Source: Deltaproteobacteria bacterium (GTDB lineage Bacteria > JAGRBM01 > JAHCIT01). Taken from it: a stretch of DNA of 64,000 bases. The stretch covers positions 186,001 through 250,000 of the forward strand of contig JAHCIT010000005.1 of the NCBI GenBank assembly GCA_026129095.1, read 5' to 3'. The notes beneath the pieces are model-generated. The model had not been told where the DNA came from, searched no databases, and worked only from the letters and a program-made list of their open reading frames with translations. Both the position numbers and the translations under genes were made by a program. Of this stretch, positions 8,519 through 35,599 are shown in pieces. How positions within the stretch are numbered: the stretch's first letter is position 1; each line of letters starts with the position of its first letter.

Positions 8519-11382
8519 GGGACCACCTCGATGCACCGCTCGCACAGGTCCGGGTGCCTTTCGCAGGATCCGGTCTTTTCTGAATGATGCCAGCACCGGC
8601 CGCAACGGGCGCCGGACGCCTTCCCGACGTGTATCTGCACCGTATCGGCCTCCGGCAGCAGCTCAAAGGATGACACGACGAGCAGTTCCTCCATGAGCGA
8701 CAGGCGGTTTACGTCGCGACCTGCCGCCACCCGCAGGAAGTCCGCCGGAATCTCCCCGCGTTTGGGAGCGACGGCCGCCTTTGCCTCCTCGGATTTCCCG
8801 ATGCTGCCCGCCACCCGGAACTTCTCCAGTTCCAGGTTCACGGCCTCGCGGAGCGCGAGCAGCGGCACGAAATCCGCCGCCAGCTTCCGGTGCCGGTCCA
8901 GTTCCGTACCGGAAGGGCCGGGCATGTCGTTCAAAAAGACCGACTCTGCCGCCAGCGGACCGAACGGCGCATCTTTCGCCGTCCCCGGCGCCTGCCGGTG
9001 CAGTTCGCCCCAGGCTTCCTCGCAGGTAAAGGAGCACACCGGCGCGAATACGGTGAGCAGCGTCACCAGCACGTCATACATGGAACTCTGCGTGGAACGG
9101 CGCGCCGGATCGTCCGCCTTGAGGATATACAGGCGGTCCTTGGTGGCGTTGGCGTAGATGGATGAAAGATCCACGGTCACAAACTGGTTCACGCCGTGAT
9201 AGACACGGTGGAACTCGTAGTTTTCGTAGGCCGCCCGCGCTTCGGCCGCCAGCACCATCGCGCTGGAGAATATCCAGCGGTCCAGAAGCGGCCGGCGGTC
9301 ATAGGGGACATAGTTCGCCGCCGGGGAAAACCCGTCCAGGCAGCCCAGCAGGTGACGGACGATGTTGCGGAACTTGCGGTACATCTCCGACAGCCGCTGG
9401 AGGATTTCGTCGCCGAAATGGATGTCGTTCCGGTAGTCCTCGGCAGCTACCCACAGGCGGAACAGTTCCGGCCCGCTCGTCTTCAGCGTCTTTTCCGGCG
9501 GCGTGTAGGTCGGGTTCGACTTGGAATACTTCTTACCCTCGTGGTCCACCACGAAGCCGTGGGTCAGTACCGCACGGTAGGGCGGACCGCCACGGGTGGC
9601 GACCGAGGTGAGCAGCGACGAATGGAACCACCCTCGGTGCTGGTCGGAGCCTTCCAGATACAGGTCGGCAGGCCAGGCAAGTTCCGGGTTCCCTTCCAGC
9701 ACGGCGGCGTGGGACACCCCGGAGTCGAACCACACGTCGAGGATATCGCCGCCTTTCTTCCATTCCGTCTGGCCGCACCGGGGGCATTTGTACCCGGCGG
9801 GGATGAGCTGTTTCACGTCGCCGGCGAACCAGACCTCGATACCGTGCTGCTCGATCTGTCTGGCCACCAGTTCGACCAGCTCCGGCGTCGATTCCACATG
9901 ACCGCAGCCCGAACACTCGTAGCTGACGATTGGCACGCCCCACACCCGCTGGCGCGAGATGCACCAGTCGGGACGGTTCGCCACCATGTTGTAGATCCGG
10001 TCCCGGCCCCACGGGGGAATCCACTGGACCTTCCCGTCGATGGCCTCAAGGGATTTTTCGCGCAGGCCGTCGTGCTCCAGCGAGACGAACCACTGGGGCG
10101 TCGCCCGGAAAATGACCGGTTTCTTCGACCGCCAGCAGTGCGGGTAGCTGTGGCTCACCTTGCCCTGCGCGAGCAGCGCACCTGCGGCATCGAGCTTTTC
10201 GATTACCTTCGGATTGGCATCGAACACCTGAAGTCCCACAAGATCCTTCAGATTTTCATGGAGGTCAGCCGTATAACGGCCCCTCGAGTCCACCGGCGAA
10301 TAGACATCAAGATCGTAATGGCGGCCCATCACGTAGTCCTCGGCTCCGTGGCCCGGCGCCGTATGAACAATTCCGGTGCCCTGTTCGAGCGTGACGTGGG
10401 TGCCGAGCATGATGAGCGACGCCCGGCCGGTGAGCGGGTGCCGGGCGGTCTTCCGCTCCAGATGGCCGGGACGGAACTCCGCCACCACCACCGGATCCTT
10501 CAGCTTGCAGGCGGCCGCAAACGCCTCCAGAAGTCCCTTGGCGACAATGAATACGCGCCCGCGCCCGGCTGCATCGGCCGTCTTCACGGCCACGTAGTCC
10601 AGTTCCGGGTGGAGCGAGAGGCCCAGGTTCGCCGGAATGGTCCAGGGCGTCGTCGTCCAGATGACAAGCTCCGGCTTCTCCCCCTTCAGTTCGGGGGCAA
10701 TCTCCGACCCGTCTCCGTCGTAGGGAAATGCCACATAGACCGATGGCGAGGTGTGGTCATCATACTCCACTTCCGCCTCGGCGAGCGATGTTTCCAGCGC
10801 CCAGCTCCAGTAGACCGGCTTGTTCTGCCGGTAGACGTAGCCCTTCGACAGGAACCGCCCGAACTCGCGAAGGATCTTCGCCTCGTAATCCTTCGTCATC
10901 GTCCGGTAGCAGTTGGCGTAGTCCGCCAGCACACCCAGTTCGCGGAACTCCGCCATCTGGATGCCGATGAACTCCGAGGCGTAGTCCCGGCAGGCGGCCA
11001 CCATCTGCTCCGGCGTCGCCTGCTGTTTCTTCGCCCGGAAGTTTTCGGCCACCTTCTGCTCGATGGGGAGGCCGTGGCAGTCCCATCCCGGCACGTACGG
11101 TGCCCCCTGCGTGCCGGAAAGGTTCCGGTACTTGACGATGATGTCCTTCAGGACCTTGTTGAGGATGTGCCCGTGGTGGATATGGCCGTTGGCGTAGGGC
11201 GGACCATCATGGAGAACGAACCGCCTGCGGCCTTTCGTGCGCGCCACCATCCGGCCATAGGTGTCTTCCGACTCCCAGCGCCTGACGAACTCCGGCGCCC
11301 TCCTGGCCATGTCGGCGCGCATGGGGAACGCCGTCTTCGGAAGGAAGATGGTGTGCGACCAGGGATTATCGTTTTTGGCCAT
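8515..11382 (-). CDS. ileS: Isoleucyl-tRNA synthetase
   Basis: A 954-residue class I synthetase. The HIGH region is at 67-72 (HIHHGH after PPYANG), the long CP1 editing domain follows, the KMSKS equivalent is KYSKS at 618-622, and a C-terminal zinc finger (CGRCWHH...CERC) closes the protein. It charges tRNA-Ile. MAKNDNPWSHTIFLPKTAFPMR sets the start at 11382; the longer frame covers the leader. The extensive plus-strand ORF across this gene is a shadow. It is followed in the same operon by lspA and lgt. Confidence 0.98.
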   Translation of the reverse strand: MAKNDNPWSHTIFLPKTAFPMRADMARRAPEFVRRWESEDTYGRMVARTKGRRRFVLHDGPPYANGHIHHGHILNKVLKDIIVKYRNLSGTQGAPYVPGWDCHGLPIEQKVAENFRAKKQQATPEQMVAACRDYASEFIGIQMAEFRELGVLADYANCYRTMTKDYEAKILREFGRFLSKGYVYRQNKPVYWSWALETSLAEAEVEYDDHTSPSVYVAFPYDGDGSEIAPELKGEKPELVIWTTTPWTIPANLGLSLHPELDYVAVKTADAAGRGRVFIVAKGLLEAFAAACKLKDPVVVAEFRPGHLERKTARHPLTGRASLIMLGTHVTLEQGTGIVHTAPGHGAEDYVMGRHYDLDVYSPVDSRGRYTADLHENLKDLVGLQVFDANPKVIEKLDAAGALLAQGKVSHSYPHCWRSKKPVIFRATPQWFVSLEHDGLREKSLEAIDGKVQWIPPWGRDRIYNMVANRPDWCISRQRVWGVPIVSYECSGCGHVESTPELVELVARQIEQHGIEVWFAGDVKQLIPAGYKCPRCGQTEWKKGGDILDVWFDSGVSHAAVLEGNPELAWPADLYLEGSDQHRGWFHSSLLTSVATRGGPPYRAVLTHGFVVDHEGKKYSKSNPTYTPPEKTLKTSGPELFRLWVAAEDYRNDIHFGDEILQRLSEMYRKFRNIVRHLLGCLDGFSPAANYVPYDRRPLLDRWIFSSAMVLAAEARAAYENYEFHRVYHGVNQFVTVDLSSIYANATKDRLYILKADDPARRSTQSSMYDVLVTLLTVFAPVCSFTCEEAWGELHRQAPGTAKDAPFGPLAAESVFLNDMPGPSGTELDRHRKLAADFVPLLALREAVNLELEKFRVAGSIGKSEEAKAAVAPKRGEIPADFLRVAAGRDVNRLSLMEELLVVSSFELLPEADTVQIHVGKASGARCGRCWHHSEKTGSCERHPDLCERCIEVVP

Positions 11383-21570: not shown

Positions 21571-24048
21571 ATGCCCGAAACATTCATCAACTCGCTTGCC
21601 CGCCGCTGGTCCCGGCTTGTGCTCCGGTGGCCCGGCATCCTTCTTGCCCTGCTAACGGCGGCGACGGGCCTGCTCGGCTGGTATGCATCGGGCCTTGAGC
21701 TGCGTTCCGATTTCAAGGAACTCCTGCCGCAGGAGTCGCAGGCCGTCAGGGACTACAACCAGTACCGTGACCGGCTGGGCGGTGTCGGTAACTTTATCAT
21801 CGTCGTCGAGAACCGGAACTTCGACGCCGCCCGCGACTATGTGGATGCGCTGGTTGCCGCGCTGGAGGAGAAGACCCCTCCCGGCCAGATCGAATACATC
21901 GACTACCGCGTGACCGCCCAGCGGGAGTTCTTCGAGAAGAACAAGTACCTCTATGTCGATGTGGAAGATCTCGTCACGATCCGCGAGCGGCTCCGCACCA
22001 AGATCGAGTGGGAGACCATCTGCAGCAACCCGATGTATATCGACATCGCTGGCGATTGCGACGAGGACCCCGGTTTCACCTTCGACGACATCCAGGACAA
22101 ATACCGCGCCCTTGGCCGCCGTTACGACCACTATATCGAGAACTACTACACGTCGGCCGACGGCAGCCTGATCGCCATACTCATCAAGCCGAGCCACGAT
22201 GCGGCGAGCGTCACCAACGTGGAGGCGTTCCTCAAGGCCGTCGAACCGGTGATCCAGTCGGTCGATCCCGCCGCCTTCGATCCGTCCATCCAGCTCAGAT
22301 ACACGGGCGCCTTCATGATGGCCTATGGGGAATACAAGGCCATCTTCAACGATATTCTCTCCACGGCCGCGCTCTGCTTTGTCCTGGTGCTCCTGGCTCT
22401 GGTCCTCTATTTCCGGCGGTTCCGGACGATTTACCTGATCTTCAGCGGTGTCATCTTCGGCCTCGTCTGGATGTTTGCCCTGACGCGGCACCAGTACGGT
22501 TTCCTCAACTCCGTCACGGGATTCCTCGGAATCGTGGTGCTGGGGAACGGCATCAACAACGCGATCGTGCTCGTCGCCCGATACCTCGAAGAACGCCGCC
22601 GCGGGGAAGAGATGCCGGAGGCGATGGAAACCGCCCTGGCCTCGACCCTTCGTGCGACATTCGTCGCTGCCTTCACGACGGCGGCGGCCTACGCGACGCT
22701 CGTCATCTCCGACATGCAGGGGCACAAGCAGTTCGGCGTCATCGGCTCCTTTGGCATGGCCGCCTGCTGGCTGGCCACGTTCCTCGTCGTCCCACCGCTC
22801 ATCTGCCTGTCGGAGCGGTTCCGCCCGATCTCGCCGGAAGGCTACGCCGAAAGCCGGATCCGGGTGGGAGACTGGATCTACAAGTCGATCCGCCGGTATC
22901 CGCAAGGCTGGATTTCAGCGGGTGCCCTGCTCACCGTGGCCGGGACCGTCTGCCTCGGCCTGTTCCTCCGGGATCCGTGGGAAGAGGACTACACAAAAGT
23001 CCGGTCACAGTCGTCGCTCCGGAGCGGCTACCAGGCGACCAACCGTCTCATCATGGAGCGGATATTCGACCTGTCGCTGACCCCCGCAGCGGTCCTTGTG
23101 GATGATCCGGAAGATGTCCCCGCTGTTGTCGCCGAACTGGAACGGCGGCGGGAGACGCCGGATTCCATCATCGACTCCATCCGGTATGTGGCGGGATTTG
23201 TTCCGGACCGGCAGGGGGAGAAGCTCGCTGTCCTCGACGATATCCGCGAACTGATGGACGGGCAGGCACTCAGATTCCTGAATGCCGAGCAGCGCACGGA
23301 GGTGGACCGGATCCGCGAGTCCATCAACCTGGAGAAAATCACCGTGGATGACCTCCCCGATGAGATCGTCCGGAACTTCCGCGAAAAGGACGGTTCATTC
23401 GACAAGGTAATCTACGTGTTCCCCGACAACAGCCGGGAGCTGGTCTACAAGAGCAACCTCCAGGCGTATGTGGACTCCGTACGGCATATCCGGCTGGATA
23501 ACGGCAAGGAAGTCACTTCCGCCAGCGAGCAGACGCTGGTTATCGACACCATCAACCTGACGATCGAGACCGCCCCTGTCGTCGTCGGCCTCGCCTACGG
23601 GCTTGTGCTGCTGCTGGTGGCCGTCCTGTTCCCGTCAGCACGCGCAATCATCACGCTGATGATCACGCTGACGGCCGGCTTCCTGATGATCTTCATGGGG
23701 TTCTATGGACTCAACCAGAAGCTCACATTCTTCAACTTCATCACCCTGCCGCTCACCATCGGCATCGGTATCGACTACGGAACGAACATCTACAGCCGGT
23801 ACGAACTGGATGGCCGCGGCTCGATCCGCGACGTGCTGAGGACGACCGGCGGAGCCGTGATGCTCTGCTCGGTAACAACAGTGATCGGGTACCTGTCGCT
23901 GCTCATCGCCAACAACCTGATGCTGGTCTACTTCGGGTGGCTGTGCCTCATTGGCGAGATCACCACCGTTTTTACCGCCATCGTGCTGCTCCCCGCCTGG
24001 CTCCTGTGGCGGGAACGGCGGGAACTGGTCATGCCACCGGCGGGCTGA
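21571..24048 (+). CDS. MMPL/RND-superfamily exporter
   Basis: An 825-residue, twelve-span transporter in two homologous halves. An N-terminal helix (residues 18-38) is followed by a large periplasmic domain, helices 2-6 from about 255 to 410, helix 7 near 440-460, a second periplasmic domain and helices 8-12 from about 665 to 815. The second half contains GIGIDYGTNIYSRYE, the MMPL helix with acidic residues used in proton relay. MMPL exporters move lipids, hopanoids or other hydrophobic cargo to the envelope. The gene stands alone between its own promoter and a strong terminator, so no cargo can be inferred. Confidence 0.88.
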   Translation: MPETFINSLARRWSRLVLRWPGILLALLTAATGLLGWYASGLELRSDFKELLPQESQAVRDYNQYRDRLGGVGNFIIVVENRNFDAARDYVDALVAALEEKTPPGQIEYIDYRVTAQREFFEKNKYLYVDVEDLVTIRERLRTKIEWETICSNPMYIDIAGDCDEDPGFTFDDIQDKYRALGRRYDHYIENYYTSADGSLIAILIKPSHDAASVTNVEAFLKAVEPVIQSVDPAAFDPSIQLRYTGAFMMAYGEYKAIFNDILSTAALCFVLVLLALVLYFRRFRTIYLIFSGVIFGLVWMFALTRHQYGFLNSVTGFLGIVVLGNGINNAIVLVARYLEERRRGEEMPEAMETALASTLRATFVAAFTTAAAYATLVISDMQGHKQFGVIGSFGMAACWLATFLVVPPLICLSERFRPISPEGYAESRIRVGDWIYKSIRRYPQGWISAGALLTVAGTVCLGLFLRDPWEEDYTKVRSQSSLRSGYQATNRLIMERIFDLSLTPAAVLVDDPEDVPAVVAELERRRETPDSIIDSIRYVAGFVPDRQGEKLAVLDDIRELMDGQALRFLNAEQRTEVDRIRESINLEKITVDDLPDEIVRNFREKDGSFDKVIYVFPDNSRELVYKSNLQAYVDSVRHIRLDNGKEVTSASEQTLVIDTINLTIETAPVVVGLAYGLVLLLVAVLFPSARAIITLMITLTAGFLMIFMGFYGLNQKLTFFNFITLPLTIGIGIDYGTNIYSRYELDGRGSIRDVLRTTGGAVMLCSVTTVIGYLSLLIANNLMLVYFGWLCLIGEITTVFTAIVLLPAWLLWRERRELVMPPAG

Positions 24049-24098: not shown

Positions 24099-24216
24099 CA
24101 CACATTCCCTGATTCAGGTCAGGTTTTTCCGGCTCTGGCCTGTGCTACGAAGGGCGGCTATGAAATGTGGCAAGTTAAGGCATATATCGGGAACTGGTTA
24201 TTAAGGACGGCGACTC

Positions 24217-26061
24217 ATGGATCTTCAGCATACGGTATTCGGCATGTGGAACGGCGGGCACTTCCTGCACTTCGGCGAGGATATCGGCGCCGAACGGCTG
24301 AAGGCGCTGGTGCGCAAATCCTATGACCTGGGCGTCCGGACGTTCATCACGGCCGATGTCTATGGCGAGGGCGAATCCGACCGGATCGCGGGCGAAGTGC
24401 TGAGCGCCTATCCCCGCGACAGCTACTGCCTTGTGGGCGGCATCGGGCACGACTTCATCAAGGGCCAGCGCGACGGAGAAAAGGGGTTCCCCCGGTTCAC
24501 CGACCCCAGCCTTCGCCCGGCCTCCGAATACGAGAGCTACATCCGCACGTCGGTCGAGGAGTCCCTCAAGCGGTGCCGGACGGACCATTTCGACCTCGTG
24601 TTCCTGCACAACCCCGACCAGACGGGCTACGAAAGCCCGGTCGTCTGGGACGCGATGGCAAAACTCAAGGCCGAGGGGAAGACCCGGATGCTCGGCCTCG
24701 CGCCGGGCCCGGCCAACGGCTTTACCTTAGACATCATCCAGTGCTTCGAAAAATACGGCGAGCGGATCGACTGGGCCATGATCATCCTGAACCCGCTGGA
24801 GCCCTGGCCGGGAAGCTACTGCTTCGCGGCGGCCAAAAAGCACAATATCAAGGTGCTGACTCGCGTGGTGGATTACGGCGGCCTCTTCCATGGCTACATC
24901 AGGCCGGGCCACCGGTTCGGGCGGAACGATCACCGCTCCTTCCGGCCTGCAGGCTGGGTTGAGGAAGGACTGAAGAAGATCGACCAGATGCGGCCCATCG
25001 CCGAGCGGCACAACCTCTCGCTTTTACATCTCGCCTGCCAGTGGACAATGGGACACGATCCGGTGGAAGCCGTCGTGCCGACCCTGCTTCAGGAAGCCGG
25101 TCCCGATGCGAAGCCGGTAGAAGCGCAACTGGAAGACCTGGCGAAACTGCCAGCGAAGAAGCTCCTTTCGCCGGAGGAAGTCGCCGCCATAACGAAGATC
25201 GGCGACAACAAGGGCTGCATGCAGCTCAAGGGCGCCTCGCGCCAGTACAGCGGTCCGCCGCAGGGCGACCAGTGGGCCATGACCCCGCAACTGGAAGAGG
25301 TGGCCAGGCGCTGGAACTTCCGGCCCGACCGGGATTTCTATTTCGCGGGCGACCCCCGCGACATGCGCGAAAAAGGACTCCCCATCCGCGGCGAGCCGCA
25401 GCTTGAGGACCGGCGCCTGTTCATCCAGCTCCAGTGCTTCACGGGCGCCAACGGAGCAGGAACGCTCGTCGAGGCGATGAAAAAGAGCCAGCTCGAATGC
25501 GTCCTGTATTCCAGCGCCAACGATCCGCATGGCGTGGGCGTGCTGGTCCTGAGCGAGAACGAGAACACCTTCGTCACGACGGCCCGCGACCTGTTCAACA
25601 GCGATCCGTTCCAGAAGCTCGTGCCTGTTCCCGCCATGACCATGTTCGGCCGGACCTACGGCGGCGGCCGGGAACCGGACCTCAAGGACTGGCTGCTCGA
25701 CAAGCCCCGCCGCAACGCGATGAACGGCGACTGCCCGTGGGCCATCTGGTATCCGCTCCGCCGCAAGGGCGCGTTCTACCGGCTGCCGGATGCCGAGAAG
25801 GGCAAAATCCTGTTCGAGCACGGAATGATCGGCCGCAACTACGGCAACGCGGGGCTCGCCTTCGACATCCGCCTCGAATGTTTCGGCATGGACCCGAACG
25901 ACAACGAGTTCGTGATCGGGCTCGTGGGCCCGCGCCTCCACCCGCTCTCGAAACTGATCGCCGACATGCGCCCCACCACCCAGACCTCCGAATACATGGA
26001 CAAGCTGGGGCCTTTCTTCGTCGGCAAGGCGATCTGGCAGAGTGGCGTGAAGGGCTCATAA
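24217..26061 (+). CDS. Aldo-keto-reductase-like domain fused to a chlorite dismutase/HemQ-like domain
   Basis: A 614-residue two-domain protein. Residues 1 to about 345 follow the aldo-keto reductase barrel (GVRTFITADVYGEGES, FDLVFLHNPD, GKTRMLGLAPG, LSLLHLACQW). The catalytic set is incomplete: the Asp of the usual DTADxYG is Ile44 and the TK Lys is missing (LVGGIG), while Tyr49 and His131 remain. Residues about 396-610 match the Cld/HemQ family: YPLRRKGAFYRLPDAEKGKI, then EHGMIGRNY with His535 at the position of the proximal haem ligand, then FVIGL and a final FVGKAIW. This predicts a haem-binding partner domain. The function is unknown; two zinc alcohol dehydrogenases follow (80- and 10-base gaps), suggesting a redox pathway. 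Confidence 0.8.
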   Translation: MDLQHTVFGMWNGGHFLHFGEDIGAERLKALVRKSYDLGVRTFITADVYGEGESDRIAGEVLSAYPRDSYCLVGGIGHDFIKGQRDGEKGFPRFTDPSLRPASEYESYIRTSVEESLKRCRTDHFDLVFLHNPDQTGYESPVVWDAMAKLKAEGKTRMLGLAPGPANGFTLDIIQCFEKYGERIDWAMIILNPLEPWPGSYCFAAAKKHNIKVLTRVVDYGGLFHGYIRPGHRFGRNDHRSFRPAGWVEEGLKKIDQMRPIAERHNLSLLHLACQWTMGHDPVEAVVPTLLQEAGPDAKPVEAQLEDLAKLPAKKLLSPEEVAAITKIGDNKGCMQLKGASRQYSGPPQGDQWAMTPQLEEVARRWNFRPDRDFYFAGDPRDMREKGLPIRGEPQLEDRRLFIQLQCFTGANGAGTLVEAMKKSQLECVLYSSANDPHGVGVLVLSENENTFVTTARDLFNSDPFQKLVPVPAMTMFGRTYGGGREPDLKDWLLDKPRRNAMNGDCPWAIWYPLRRKGAFYRLPDAEKGKILFEHGMIGRNYGNAGLAFDIRLECFGMDPNDNEFVIGLVGPRLHPLSKLIADMRPTTQTSEYMDKLGPFFVGKAIWQSGVKGS

Positions 26062-26140
26062 GTCCACCCGCTTGCCCTCCTCCCGCGGGGCCCGTATGTT
26101 TCGCCCCTCGGCGCTCCGGGAGGCCGCCCTTAACGACGTC

Positions 26141-27190
26141 ATGCGAGCAGCGGTCTATCACGGCAAGGACCAGGTGAAGGTCGAGGAGGTTCCGGTACCG
26201 GATGTGGGGCCGGGGGAAGTCCTCGTCCGCGTGAAGGCCTGCGGCGTCTGCCAGTCGGACATCAAGAAGATCCACTACGGCCTGCACGAGGGCCCGCGCA
26301 TCTACGGACACGAGACGGCCGGCGTCGTGGAGCGCACGGGCGCTGGTGTGACGAAATGGAAGCCGGGCGACCGGGTGGTGTTCCACCACCACTATCCGTG
26401 CATGAACTGCCGCTACTGCCGCACCGAGAACTACTCCATGTGCCAGGTGTACAAGGACGTGGTTTCAACGGCCGGGTTCGTGCCGTCGGGCGGCGGATTC
26501 GCCGAACTGGTGAAACTGCCCAGGCACCTTGCCGATCACGCCGTCATTGCCATGCCGGACAGCATCTCGTTCGAGGAAGCCACGTTCGTCGAGCCGCTCA
26601 ACTGCACGCTGAAGGCGGTCCGAAAGGCGCGGGTACAGGCGGGCGATTTTTCATGGGTGATCGGCGCGGGACCGATGGGCCTGCTGTTCGTCATGGCGCT
26701 GAAGGCCCTTGGCGCCCGGCCCATCGTCTCCGACCCCCTTCCCGAACGGCGCGAACGGGCCCTGAAACTGGGCGCGGCCCACGCGCTCGATCCACTGGCG
26801 GCCGGTTTCGCCGGTGAGCTGGCGGAGGTTTCCGGTGGCCTTGGTCCGGACCAGGCCTTCCTCGCCGTGGCCCAGATGAAGCCGCTGGAACAGGCCCTCC
26901 GGCTCGTCCGCAAGGGCGGGACGGTTTGCGTGTTCAGCGAGTTCCCCGAGGAGCAGCGGCTTGGCGTCGATCCGAACCTGATCTACGGCCGCGAGGTGGA
27001 CCTGATCGGCAGCTACTCCTCGTCAGCCGCCGTGCAGGATCTTGCCGCCGAACTGGTGTTTTCGCGCCGCGTCCCGGTACGGGAACTGATCTCCAGAACC
27101 TATCCGCTCACCGGCCTGATGGACGCCATCAACGAGGCGCTCCACCCCACGCCCGCCACCTGCAAGCTGATCGTTACGCCGGAAGGATGA
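26141..27190 (+). CDS. Zinc-dependent medium-chain alcohol dehydrogenase
   Basis: A 349-residue MDR protein. Catalytic zinc ligands are C37, H57 and E58 (GVCQSD and GHE), the structural zinc Cys set is C87, C90, C93 and C101, and the NAD-binding fold opens near 180 with VIGAGPMGLLFV. This layout is that of sorbitol/threonine/alcohol dehydrogenases; the substrate cannot be specified. The ATG at 26141 is supported by homology; a longer in-frame start at 26072 lacks family similarity. It lies between the AKR-Cld fusion and a second MDR gene, only 10 bases from the latter. Confidence 0.88.
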   Translation: MRAAVYHGKDQVKVEEVPVPDVGPGEVLVRVKACGVCQSDIKKIHYGLHEGPRIYGHETAGVVERTGAGVTKWKPGDRVVFHHHYPCMNCRYCRTENYSMCQVYKDVVSTAGFVPSGGGFAELVKLPRHLADHAVIAMPDSISFEEATFVEPLNCTLKAVRKARVQAGDFSWVIGAGPMGLLFVMALKALGARPIVSDPLPERRERALKLGAAHALDPLAAGFAGELAEVSGGLGPDQAFLAVAQMKPLEQALRLVRKGGTVCVFSEFPEEQRLGVDPNLIYGREVDLIGSYSSSAAVQDLAAELVFSRRVPVRELISRTYPLTGLMDAINEALHPTPATCKLIVTPEG

Positions 27191-27200
27191 GAGCCGGGAA

Positions 27201-28229
27201 ATGCGCGCCGCCATTCTTCATGGAAAGGAAGACCTCCGGCTGGAGGAGGTGGAGCGGCCCCGGCCCGCGCCGGGAGAGGTTGTGGTCCGGGTACGGGCGG
27301 CGACCACCTGCGGAACGGATCTCAAGGTCTGGCTCAGGGGCGGACACGCGAGGATGATCCAGCCGCCCGCCCCCTTCGGACACGAGTTCGCTGGCGAGGT
27401 GGCAGAACTGGGCGAAGGGGTGACGGCGTTCGCCACAGGCGACCGGATTGTCGCCAACAATTCGGTACCGTGCGGAAGCTGCTTTTTCTGCCGCAAGGAC
27501 CAGCCGAACCTCTGCGAGCAGATCGCCTTCGTCAACGGCACCTATGCCGAATACCTGCTTCTGCCGGCGGCCCATGTTTCCCGTGCGGCGATCCGGATAC
27601 CGGACGGGGTTCCATTTGAAACCGCCTCCCTTTCGGAACCGCTCGCCTGCGTCCTGTGGGGCCTTGAGAACACGCCTGTCACCCGTGGTGACGAACTCGT
27701 GATCCTGGGCGATGGCCCCATCGGCCTCATGTTCGCCGCCGAGGCGGTCCTGACGGGGGCCACCGTGCGGGTAATTGGCGGGTCCGATTCCCGGCTTGCC
27801 TGTGCACGGAGAATCGGCGCTGCCGAGACGTACAACTACCACCAGCAGCCGGACACGGTCGCCCTCGTGAAAAAACGCTGCAACGGCGGCCGCGGACCGG
27901 ATCTCGTGGTGGAAGCGACCGGGAAGTCCGGCGCCTGGAACGAGGCGGTGGACCTCGTGAGAACCGGCGGCCGGGTCAACCTGTTTGGCGGTTGCCCGAA
28001 GGGCACCGCCGTCAGCTTCGACACCGAACGGATTCACTACGGGCAGGTCTCGCTGCACGGGGTATTTCACAACACCCCGGAGACATTCCGCAGGGCACTG
28101 GAGCGGCTCGCATCGGGCGGCTTCCCCGTCAGGGAGATTCTCTCCGAAGAACGCCCGCTCCCGGAACTGGCGGCCGCCTTCGACCGCATGCGCCGCCGGG
28201 AAGTGGTCAAGGTTGTGATCCGTCCATAG
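27201..28229 (+). CDS. Zinc-dependent medium-chain alcohol dehydrogenase
   Basis: A 342-residue MDR protein, paralogous to its upstream neighbour. It has C37, H61-E62 for catalytic zinc, C91, C94, C97 and C105 for structural zinc, and the Rossmann motif GDGPIGLMFA. The start MRAAILHGKEDLRLEEV matches family starts, 10 bases after the preceding stop. With the upstream dehydrogenase and the AKR-Cld fusion it probably handles successive oxidations of one polyol, sugar or related substrate; this is inferred from context only. Confidence 0.88.
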   Translation: MRAAILHGKEDLRLEEVERPRPAPGEVVVRVRAATTCGTDLKVWLRGGHARMIQPPAPFGHEFAGEVAELGEGVTAFATGDRIVANNSVPCGSCFFCRKDQPNLCEQIAFVNGTYAEYLLLPAAHVSRAAIRIPDGVPFETASLSEPLACVLWGLENTPVTRGDELVILGDGPIGLMFAAEAVLTGATVRVIGGSDSRLACARRIGAAETYNYHQQPDTVALVKKRCNGGRGPDLVVEATGKSGAWNEAVDLVRTGGRVNLFGGCPKGTAVSFDTERIHYGQVSLHGVFHNTPETFRRALERLASGGFPVREILSEERPLPELAAAFDRMRRREVVKVVIRP

Positions 28230-34555: not shown

Positions 34556-35599
34556 ATGGCCGGATTCCCAGGATTGCGCCGGACTGAAGCACGCACCCTT
34601 CCGGAGCGGCTCGGAACATTCGTTGAGGTGGCGTCGAATAACGCCTGCAACCTGTCGTGCGTTTACTGCTATGGCCTCGGCCATCCCCCGCCAATGCGCA
34701 TGACCGAAACCGGGTATGCGGGCCTGCTGGATGAACTGCTGCCCCGTGCCAGCATACTGGTGCCTTCGGCCGGGAGCGAACCCTTCTCGGCGCATCTGGA
34801 CATTGCCACCCGCAAGGTCGTCGAGCACGGCCGCCGGATGCTCCTCATCACCAACGGAACATTCCCCATGGCCAGCACGGTCCAGACGCTGGGGAAGCAT
34901 CTCTACCGGCTCCAGGTTTCGGTCGATTCCCATCTGGAAGAGACCTACGAGCGGATGCGGCCAGGAGCGAAGTTCCGCAATGTTCTGGCCAACCTGCGTG
35001 AGGCCATCGGTGTGTTGCGCGGCATGGACCTCCTACACCGGCTCGTTGTGAGCATTGTCCTGACCCGGGATACCGCCCACTCGGTTGCCGGGACGATCCG
35101 TTTCTTCCGGAAAGAAGGCGTGGAGGCTTTTCTCGTGCAGGAGCTGTACCGGTTCGACCCGCGTCTCGACGCCTACCAGCCCGACCGGACGTCCATAGAA
35201 CAGGTCCGCAGCCAGTGTCCGGCAGTGGCCCGTGAAACCCTGAGCGATATCCTGTTCGCGCATCCGCCGGTACAGCGGTTCAACGGGCGCGCAGAAACGG
35301 CGCCGCCCGTGGAGTGGGATCCCGAAAACATCCGGGCCCGGATGGCCGAAAAGCCTGGCCAGTGCTGGCAGGCCTGGGAGTGGCTCAAGATCCATCCGGG
35401 CGGGAATGTCCACCCCTGCTGCGTTGCGCCCCCTGAACTGGAACTGGGAAATCTCTCCCGGAAAACCCTGGCAGAAATTCTGGCCGGTGGCGGGCGGGAG
35501 AGGCTGCAAGCCGCTTTTGAAAATGGTAATCCCCCGTCCGTATGCCGGACCTGCCCTCTGCTCGGTCAGATAGCCCGGCCTCTGGAAGTGGTGACATGA
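34556..35599 (+). CDS. Radical SAM protein with C-terminal SPASM-like cysteines
   Basis: A 347-residue protein. C31-x3-C35-x2-C38 (CNLSCVYCYG) binds the SAM-cleaving 4Fe-4S cluster, and a GSEP segment near 73 fits SAM binding. The C-terminal part has VHPCCVAPPELELGNL and CRTCP, a SPASM/Twitch-like auxiliary cluster set. The LGNL wording is typical of SPASM enzymes that modify peptides or of anaerobic maturases. No short precursor peptide gene was recognised nearby. It overlaps the thioesterase gene by ATGA. Confidence 0.82.
   Translation: MAGFPGLRRTEARTLPERLGTFVEVASNNACNLSCVYCYGLGHPPPMRMTETGYAGLLDELLPRASILVPSAGSEPFSAHLDIATRKVVEHGRRMLLITNGTFPMASTVQTLGKHLYRLQVSVDSHLEETYERMRPGAKFRNVLANLREAIGVLRGMDLLHRLVVSIVLTRDTAHSVAGTIRFFRKEGVEAFLVQELYRFDPRLDAYQPDRTSIEQVRSQCPAVARETLSDILFAHPPVQRFNGRAETAPPVEWDPENIRARMAEKPGQCWQAWEWLKIHPGGNVHPCCVAPPELELGNLSRKTLAEILAGGGRERLQAAFENGNPPSVCRTCPLLGQIARPLEVVT

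Follow-up and report, generated by a model that had tools for sequence, protein, structure and literature searches.

We describe a gene from a deltaproteobacterial genome, contained in a window of 64,000 nucleotides (the whole stretch of DNA analysed), in which a domain with the aldo-keto reductase (AKR) fold is joined in one reading frame to a divergent C-terminal domain of the chlorite dismutase (Cld) family resembling coproheme decarboxylase (ChdC/HemQ). The fusion is real, and gene content across the genomes that encode it or its separate AKR counterpart provides a well-supported link to the siroheme haem pathway; that the fusion and its AKR relatives have a role in siroheme-based haem synthesis is very probable. 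We put at roughly even the chance that the fusion is, more narrowly, a bifunctional enzyme ending siroheme-dependent haem biosynthesis, with its AKR domain standing at the AhbC step. What is new here is the domain combination, along with a candidate enzyme for a known, incompletely assigned pathway: neither an AKR-ChdC fusion nor an AKR acting in haem synthesis is described in the open-access papers searched, in keeping with the initial annotation, which had regarded the combination as undescribed.

Haem synthesis is near-universal. Since both AhbC and AhbD belong to the radical SAM enzymes, the siroheme-dependent route has been regarded as chiefly a pathway of archaea and of anaerobic life. 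To our knowledge AhbC is the only enzyme that turns didecarboxysiroheme into coproheme, and no AKR is known to cleave carbon-carbon bonds in a tetrapyrrole. In this route AhbAB converts siroheme to 12,18-didecarboxysiroheme, AhbC produces iron-coproporphyrin III, and AhbD or ChdC yields haem (PMC3942049, PMC7242693); AhbC takes off two acetate groups by a mechanism that is unsettled (PMC12505453). Haloferax, which uses the siroheme route, employs ChdC (PitA) aerobically and AhbD anaerobically, and the authors of that study allow that coproheme may be reached by an unknown route (PMC5746218).

The initial annotation had read the frame as an AKR joined to a Cld/HemQ-like domain, had proposed profile searches with both families, and had named a fusion by assembly error as one finding that would undo this reading. 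Both Pfam domains, PF00248 and PF06778 (Chlor_dismutase; residues 505-604, E 9.5e-15), exceed their curated cut-offs within the single 614-residue frame, and full-length counterparts with 51-60% identity in nine other distinct genomes show that the fusion is no product of faulty assembly. NCBIfam searches returned AKR and Cld models only, with weak AKR and HemQ matches and no equivalog. AlphaFold2 models the entire chain with a pLDDT of 89.3 and a pTM of 0.84, and a ribosome-binding-like AAGGA, read from the sequence, lies at 24203-24207, about 10 bases 5' of the ATG. The features of the gene are collected in Table 1.

Table 1. Features of the fusion gene, with positions in the window
Feature	Position	Strand	Remark
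AKR-Cld/ChdC fusion CDS, 614 aa	24217-26061	+	ATG start, no internal stop
AKR-fold domain, residues 8-327	24238..25197	+	PF00248, E 4e-31; nearest solved fold AKR11 (IolS, 1pyf)
Ile44 codon, AKR catalytic Asp position	24346..24348	+	Asp in 0/85 subfamily members
Tyr49, AKR catalytic Tyr	24361..24363	+	kept in 85/85
Gly75, AKR catalytic Lys position	24439..24441	+	Lys in 0/85
His78-Asp79, near-invariant	24448..24453	+	83/85 and 85/85
His131, AKR catalytic His	24607..24609	+	kept in 85/85
Asp238-His239-Arg240...Arg243 motif	24928..24945	+	subfamily-invariant; also in the G030 AKR adjoining AhbAB
AKR C-terminal extension and linker, residues 328-395	25198..25401	+	GDNxGCMxLKG; present in AKR-only proteins too
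Cld/HemQ-type domain, residues 396-604	25402..26028	+	PF06778 match in second half only
Tyr512, aligns with coproheme decarboxylase catalytic Tyr	25750..25752	+	
His535, proximal haem ligand by alignment	25819..25821	+	

Counting duplicate genome entries once (G189 = G174), we found the fusion in ten genomes from several phyla. These include the source genome, the sole other examined genome of its phylum (G001), three genomes of a second phylum (G013, G173 and G174, the last being the same genome as the Sumerlaeaceae MAG at locus L041), and MAGs labelled Planctomycetota, Omnitrophota and Gemmatimonadetes. The halves also occur separately: AKR-only orthologues of about 374 residues (51-58% identity) account for 74 of the best 80 matches, mostly in Verrucomicrobiota and Thermoleophilia, where they are widespread at 55-58% identity, and five genomes in the unbiased sample encode Cld-only relatives (47-55% identity). 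In a FastTree phylogeny the AKR-only proteins nest inside the fusions, which would imply fission; with supports of 0.63-0.86 and few outgroups this is suggestive only. Plasmids searched for orthologues, haloarchaeal or otherwise, yielded just ordinary AKRs below 30% identity among the matches listed.

Modelled alone, the C-terminal part folds confidently (AlphaFold2 pLDDT 89.8) into the two ferredoxin-like barrels of the Cld fold. Its nearest solved structures are coproheme decarboxylases (from Listeria, Corynebacterium, Geobacillus and Streptomyces), and true chlorite dismutases come lower in the ranking. The predicted fold is shared across the whole domain with ChdC/HemQ of Listeria monocytogenes (4wws/5loq) and C. 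diphtheriae (6xuc; Foldseek E ~2e-12), even though identity in the structure alignment is just 15-20% and the first half of the domain lacks a Pfam match. Tyr512 aligns with the catalytic tyrosine of coproheme decarboxylases, which we take to be Tyr147 in Listeria and Tyr135 in C. diphtheriae, and His535, singled out in the initial annotation as the proximal haem histidine, indeed aligns with the proximal histidine of these enzymes; both residues are invariant in the alignment of fusions, Cld-only relatives and canonical HemQ. The Cld-only subfamily (L005-L009) is itself divergent, with its first half poorly matched by Pfam. Its gene is the sole HemQ-family gene in five genomes that also encode HemY and ferrochelatase, and in G113 the Cld-only gene adjoins the ferrochelatase gene; the L005-L009 proteins are probably the coproheme decarboxylases of their genomes.

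These observations bear on the role first suggested for the protein, that of a redox enzyme whose substrate is a peroxide or a chlorinated intermediate and whose partners are two zinc alcohol dehydrogenases. Directly downstream of the fusion, on the same strand, there are indeed two MDR alcohol dehydrogenases of the zinc type (26072-27190 and 27201-28229, +), kin of threonine and inosose dehydrogenases that score under every curated cut-off. An invariant Arg552, near the distal site, might be compatible with a functional chlorite dismutase, as judged from the alignment, in which Asp550 aligns nearest to the distal-arginine position and Arg552 is two residues off. However, a survey for the same downstream genes found neither dehydrogenase beside any other fusion within the flank read (about 10 kb per side at L036, L038, L039, L040 and L041; shorter at L037 and others), so that the proposed pathway with these dehydrogenases finds no support. 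The ranking of solved folds, and the occurrence of the same type of Cld protein as the sole HemQ-family member of genomes with HemY and HemH, or next to ferrochelatase, likewise speak against this reading, which we consider very improbable. The earlier interpretation is therefore partly supported but redirected to haem biosynthesis: the involvement of peroxide stands, since HemQ/ChdC uses H2O2, but co-occurrence points to haem biosynthesis and away from a chlorinated intermediate.

We then compared the haem genes of the genomes encoding the AKR (fused or separate) with those of the Cld-only genomes; all co-occurrence counts below are uncorrected for phylogeny. A Cld/HemQ protein is encoded in all 39 AKR genomes searched, and in each of the 33 AKR-only genomes as a separate full-length gene. 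Ferrochelatase (PF00762) is found in one of 43 AKR genomes as against five of five Cld-only genomes, and the same counts hold for HemY/CgoX (TIGR00562 over cut-off); in the source genome TIGR00562 gave nothing over cut-off and PF00762 no match. Thus, the AKR genomes possess the last enzyme of the coproporphyrin-dependent route without the two that precede it. Conversely, AhbAB (PF17805) is present in 41 of 43 AKR genomes (all except G198 and G208) versus none of the five Cld-only genomes. Across the unbiased sample it exceeds the cut-off in 22 of 145 genomes; without the three fusion genomes the figure is 19 of 142, against which the AKR genomes differ with a Fisher p of ~6e-24 (relatedness uncorrected). 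In the source genome a fused AhbA-AhbB on contig C1 scores above each of the curated cut-offs (250.7/140 and 238.8/125 bits), and the verrucomicrobial AhbAB proteins are divergent and score under them. The lone exception with regard to the coproporphyrin route, a verrucomicrobial MAG (G204, L069), encodes the AKR, AhbAB and HemQ along with an adjacent hemH-hemY pair, which could stem from a foreign contig or serve a second route to haem.

The absence of ferrochelatase had initially led us to entertain the AKR as a non-homologous ferrochelatase, an idea set aside because HemY is missing too and AhbAB is present. Another reading would have it replace coproporphyrinogen oxidase or coproporphyrin ferrochelatase by a non-homologous enzyme within the coproporphyrin-dependent pathway. 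Although this would account for the joint absence of HemY and ferrochelatase from 42 of 43 AKR genomes with HemQ present, the presence of AhbAB in 41 of the 43 and the demand that one protein replace two steps speak against it, and we hold it to be quite improbable.

The siroheme route itself appears incomplete in many of these genomes. Radical SAM proteins resembling AhbC (380 bits or more, yet under the curated 650) were recovered in 14 of 43 AKR genomes and are missing from 29. At least 24 AKR-only genomes combine the AKR, AhbAB and HemQ without AhbC, HemY or HemH, and as complete chromosomes are among them (Svornostia abyssi, G217, and a Verrucomicrobiae MAG, G215), assembly gaps are not the cause of these absences. 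With the first and last steps present, AhbC often absent, and the AKR either fused to HemQ or in a gene row with the flanking enzymes (see below), the AhbC step is the simplest assignment for the AKR. We consider it about as likely as not that the domain performs the specific AhbC-like reaction. The proposed reaction is that of AhbC (TIGR04546), directly before coproheme decarboxylation, but AhbC belongs to the radical SAM [4Fe-4S] enzymes, and the AKR-fold barrel has no sequence relation to it; the fusion matches neither radical SAM/SPASM nor TIGR04546 and is proposed as an analogue only.

We read the residues of this domain from alignments to IolS/1pyf and to 94 relatives; the subfamily counts refer to 85 aligned AKR parts. 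IolS is its best solved match both by sequence (7.6e-21) and by fold (TMt 0.82), and with a PF00248 barrel and an AlphaFold2 model matching AKR11 structures it belongs to the AKR superfamily as a fold. Unlike AKR11, it lacks the catalytic Asp and Lys, replaces the IPGAK-type NADP loop by PTxxxE with an insertion, and bears the GDNxGCMxLKG extension. The alignments thus agree with the initial annotation that Tyr49 and His131 of the Asp-Tyr-Lys-His tetrad are kept and that Asp (Ile44) and Lys (Gly75) are lost. As neither lost residue occurs in any of the 85 AKR parts, the loss is not a defect of one gene. Invariant across the same set are D47, Y49, D79, H131, N132, D238, H239, R240 and R243.

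This pattern can be read in two ways. The uniform loss of Asp and Lys is what might be seen in an enzyme that has lost catalysis, and the domain could be a partner of HemQ that binds, delivers or regulates coproheme or haem, with AhbC carrying out the step where it is present and another enzyme doing so elsewhere. The source genome and seven of the other nine fusion genomes do encode an AhbC/NirJ1-like radical SAM protein (8/10 in all), and PitA offers a precedent, its ChdC being joined to an ABM-like domain for which haem binding has been proposed (PMC5746218). However, the invariance of Tyr49, His131, D47, D79 and D238-H239-R240 suggests a retained active site, 33 genomes keep the AKR as a protein of its own that is not linked to HemQ, and a mere partner would leave the AhbC step unexplained in 24. 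We therefore regard the partner role as unlikely, while giving it more credence than the other alternatives to a catalytic AKR at the AhbC step. Where an AhbC-like protein accompanies the fusion, the AKR could be an alternative to it, much as Haloferax has ChdC and AhbD as alternatives, or could have another role. The copy in the source genome fails both cut-offs (466/650 and 518/650 bits), with its NirJ1 score above its AhbC score.

PitA resembles the fusion in several respects: it couples ChdC to a second domain, it serves aerobic haem synthesis, and it belongs to an AhbAB organism without CgoX or CpfC. It differs in that its ABM-like partner follows ChdC whereas the AKR-fold partner precedes it here, and in that Haloferax has a recognised AhbC, absent from 29 of the 43 AKR genomes. 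Canonical ChdC/HemQ differs in turn, as the fusion domain sits behind an AKR fold in siroheme-route genomes lacking CgoX or CpfC.

Gene order provides a further connection. In G030 an AKR (L280:11041-12084, -), AhbAB (9884-11131, -) and HemQ (9169-9918, -) lie directly in a row on a single strand, an order observed in this genome only; an IspH-like gene (named by eye) follows the trio (L280:9169-12084, -). The G030 AKR belongs to a sister group that joins the fusion AKR group with support 1.0 against the few other AKRs included in the tree, and it keeps the full catalytic tetrad, Asp and Lys included. In Thermoleophilia AhbAB is tied to haem by its placement between hemB and hemL, and genes for cytochrome b and a Rieske protein (named by eye) lie nearby. 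AKR-only genes have no haem genes beside them in flanks of up to 10 kb and no Cld gene within the available flank, and conserved-neighbour clustering around 80 AKR loci yielded no haem operon. Likewise, 15 AhbC contexts had no conserved neighbours except a radical SAM gene and an MDR-type dehydrogenase in five of the 15.

The intact tetrad of the G030 protein, encoded beside AhbAB, raises the alternative that these AKRs catalyse a preceding step of the siroheme branch, such as that of an NAD(P)-dependent precorrin-2 dehydrogenase or of a sirohydrochlorin ferrochelatase, AhbC being replaced by something else. Yet the fusion-type AKRs lack the residues for hydride transfer, both AKR groups lack the IPGAK-type NADP loop, and the fusion partner HemQ acts on coproheme, which makes the neighbouring step the better guess; we thus hold an earlier step to be improbable.

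Returning to the AhbC assignment, we infer that the AKR domain binds a tetrapyrrole and probably replaces AhbC. The loss of Asp and Lys fits a switch from hydride transfer to other chemistry, possibly an acid-base elimination involving Tyr49, His131 and His78/Asp79/Asp238-His239-Arg240. By our reasoning, removing acetic acid from a saturated ring involves, on paper, no net redox change overall, making a non-radical acid-base enzyme conceivable. The divergent ChdC/HemQ domain would then convert iron-coproporphyrin III to haem b with peroxide, via Tyr512 and His535. If so, AhbAB, the AKR and ChdC could constitute a complete oxygen-tolerant siroheme route in aerobic bacteria (Verrucomicrobiota, Thermoleophilia and others), a proposal we place slightly below an even chance, as we do its corollary that in several phyla the last two steps of the route reside in one polypeptide. 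Gene content implies that whole bacterial groups, cultured strains included, use a siroheme route ending in ChdC without AhbC, and hence that one enzyme is absent from current knowledge; the AKR-fold domain is a concrete candidate for this missing oxygen-tolerant step.

Other genes of the source genome deserve mention. An MMPL/HpnN-like RND transporter (21571-24048, +) lies directly upstream of the fusion, and further along the window (34556-35599, +) is the gene of a radical SAM-like protein that matches AhbC weakly (26% identity, 4.5e-6). Elsewhere, three NirJ/AhbC/AhbD-like radical SAM proteins are encoded within 15 kb at L190 (G000 contig 12, 40000-59999); none passes the AhbC, AhbD or NirJ cut-offs, and one passes TIGR04053.
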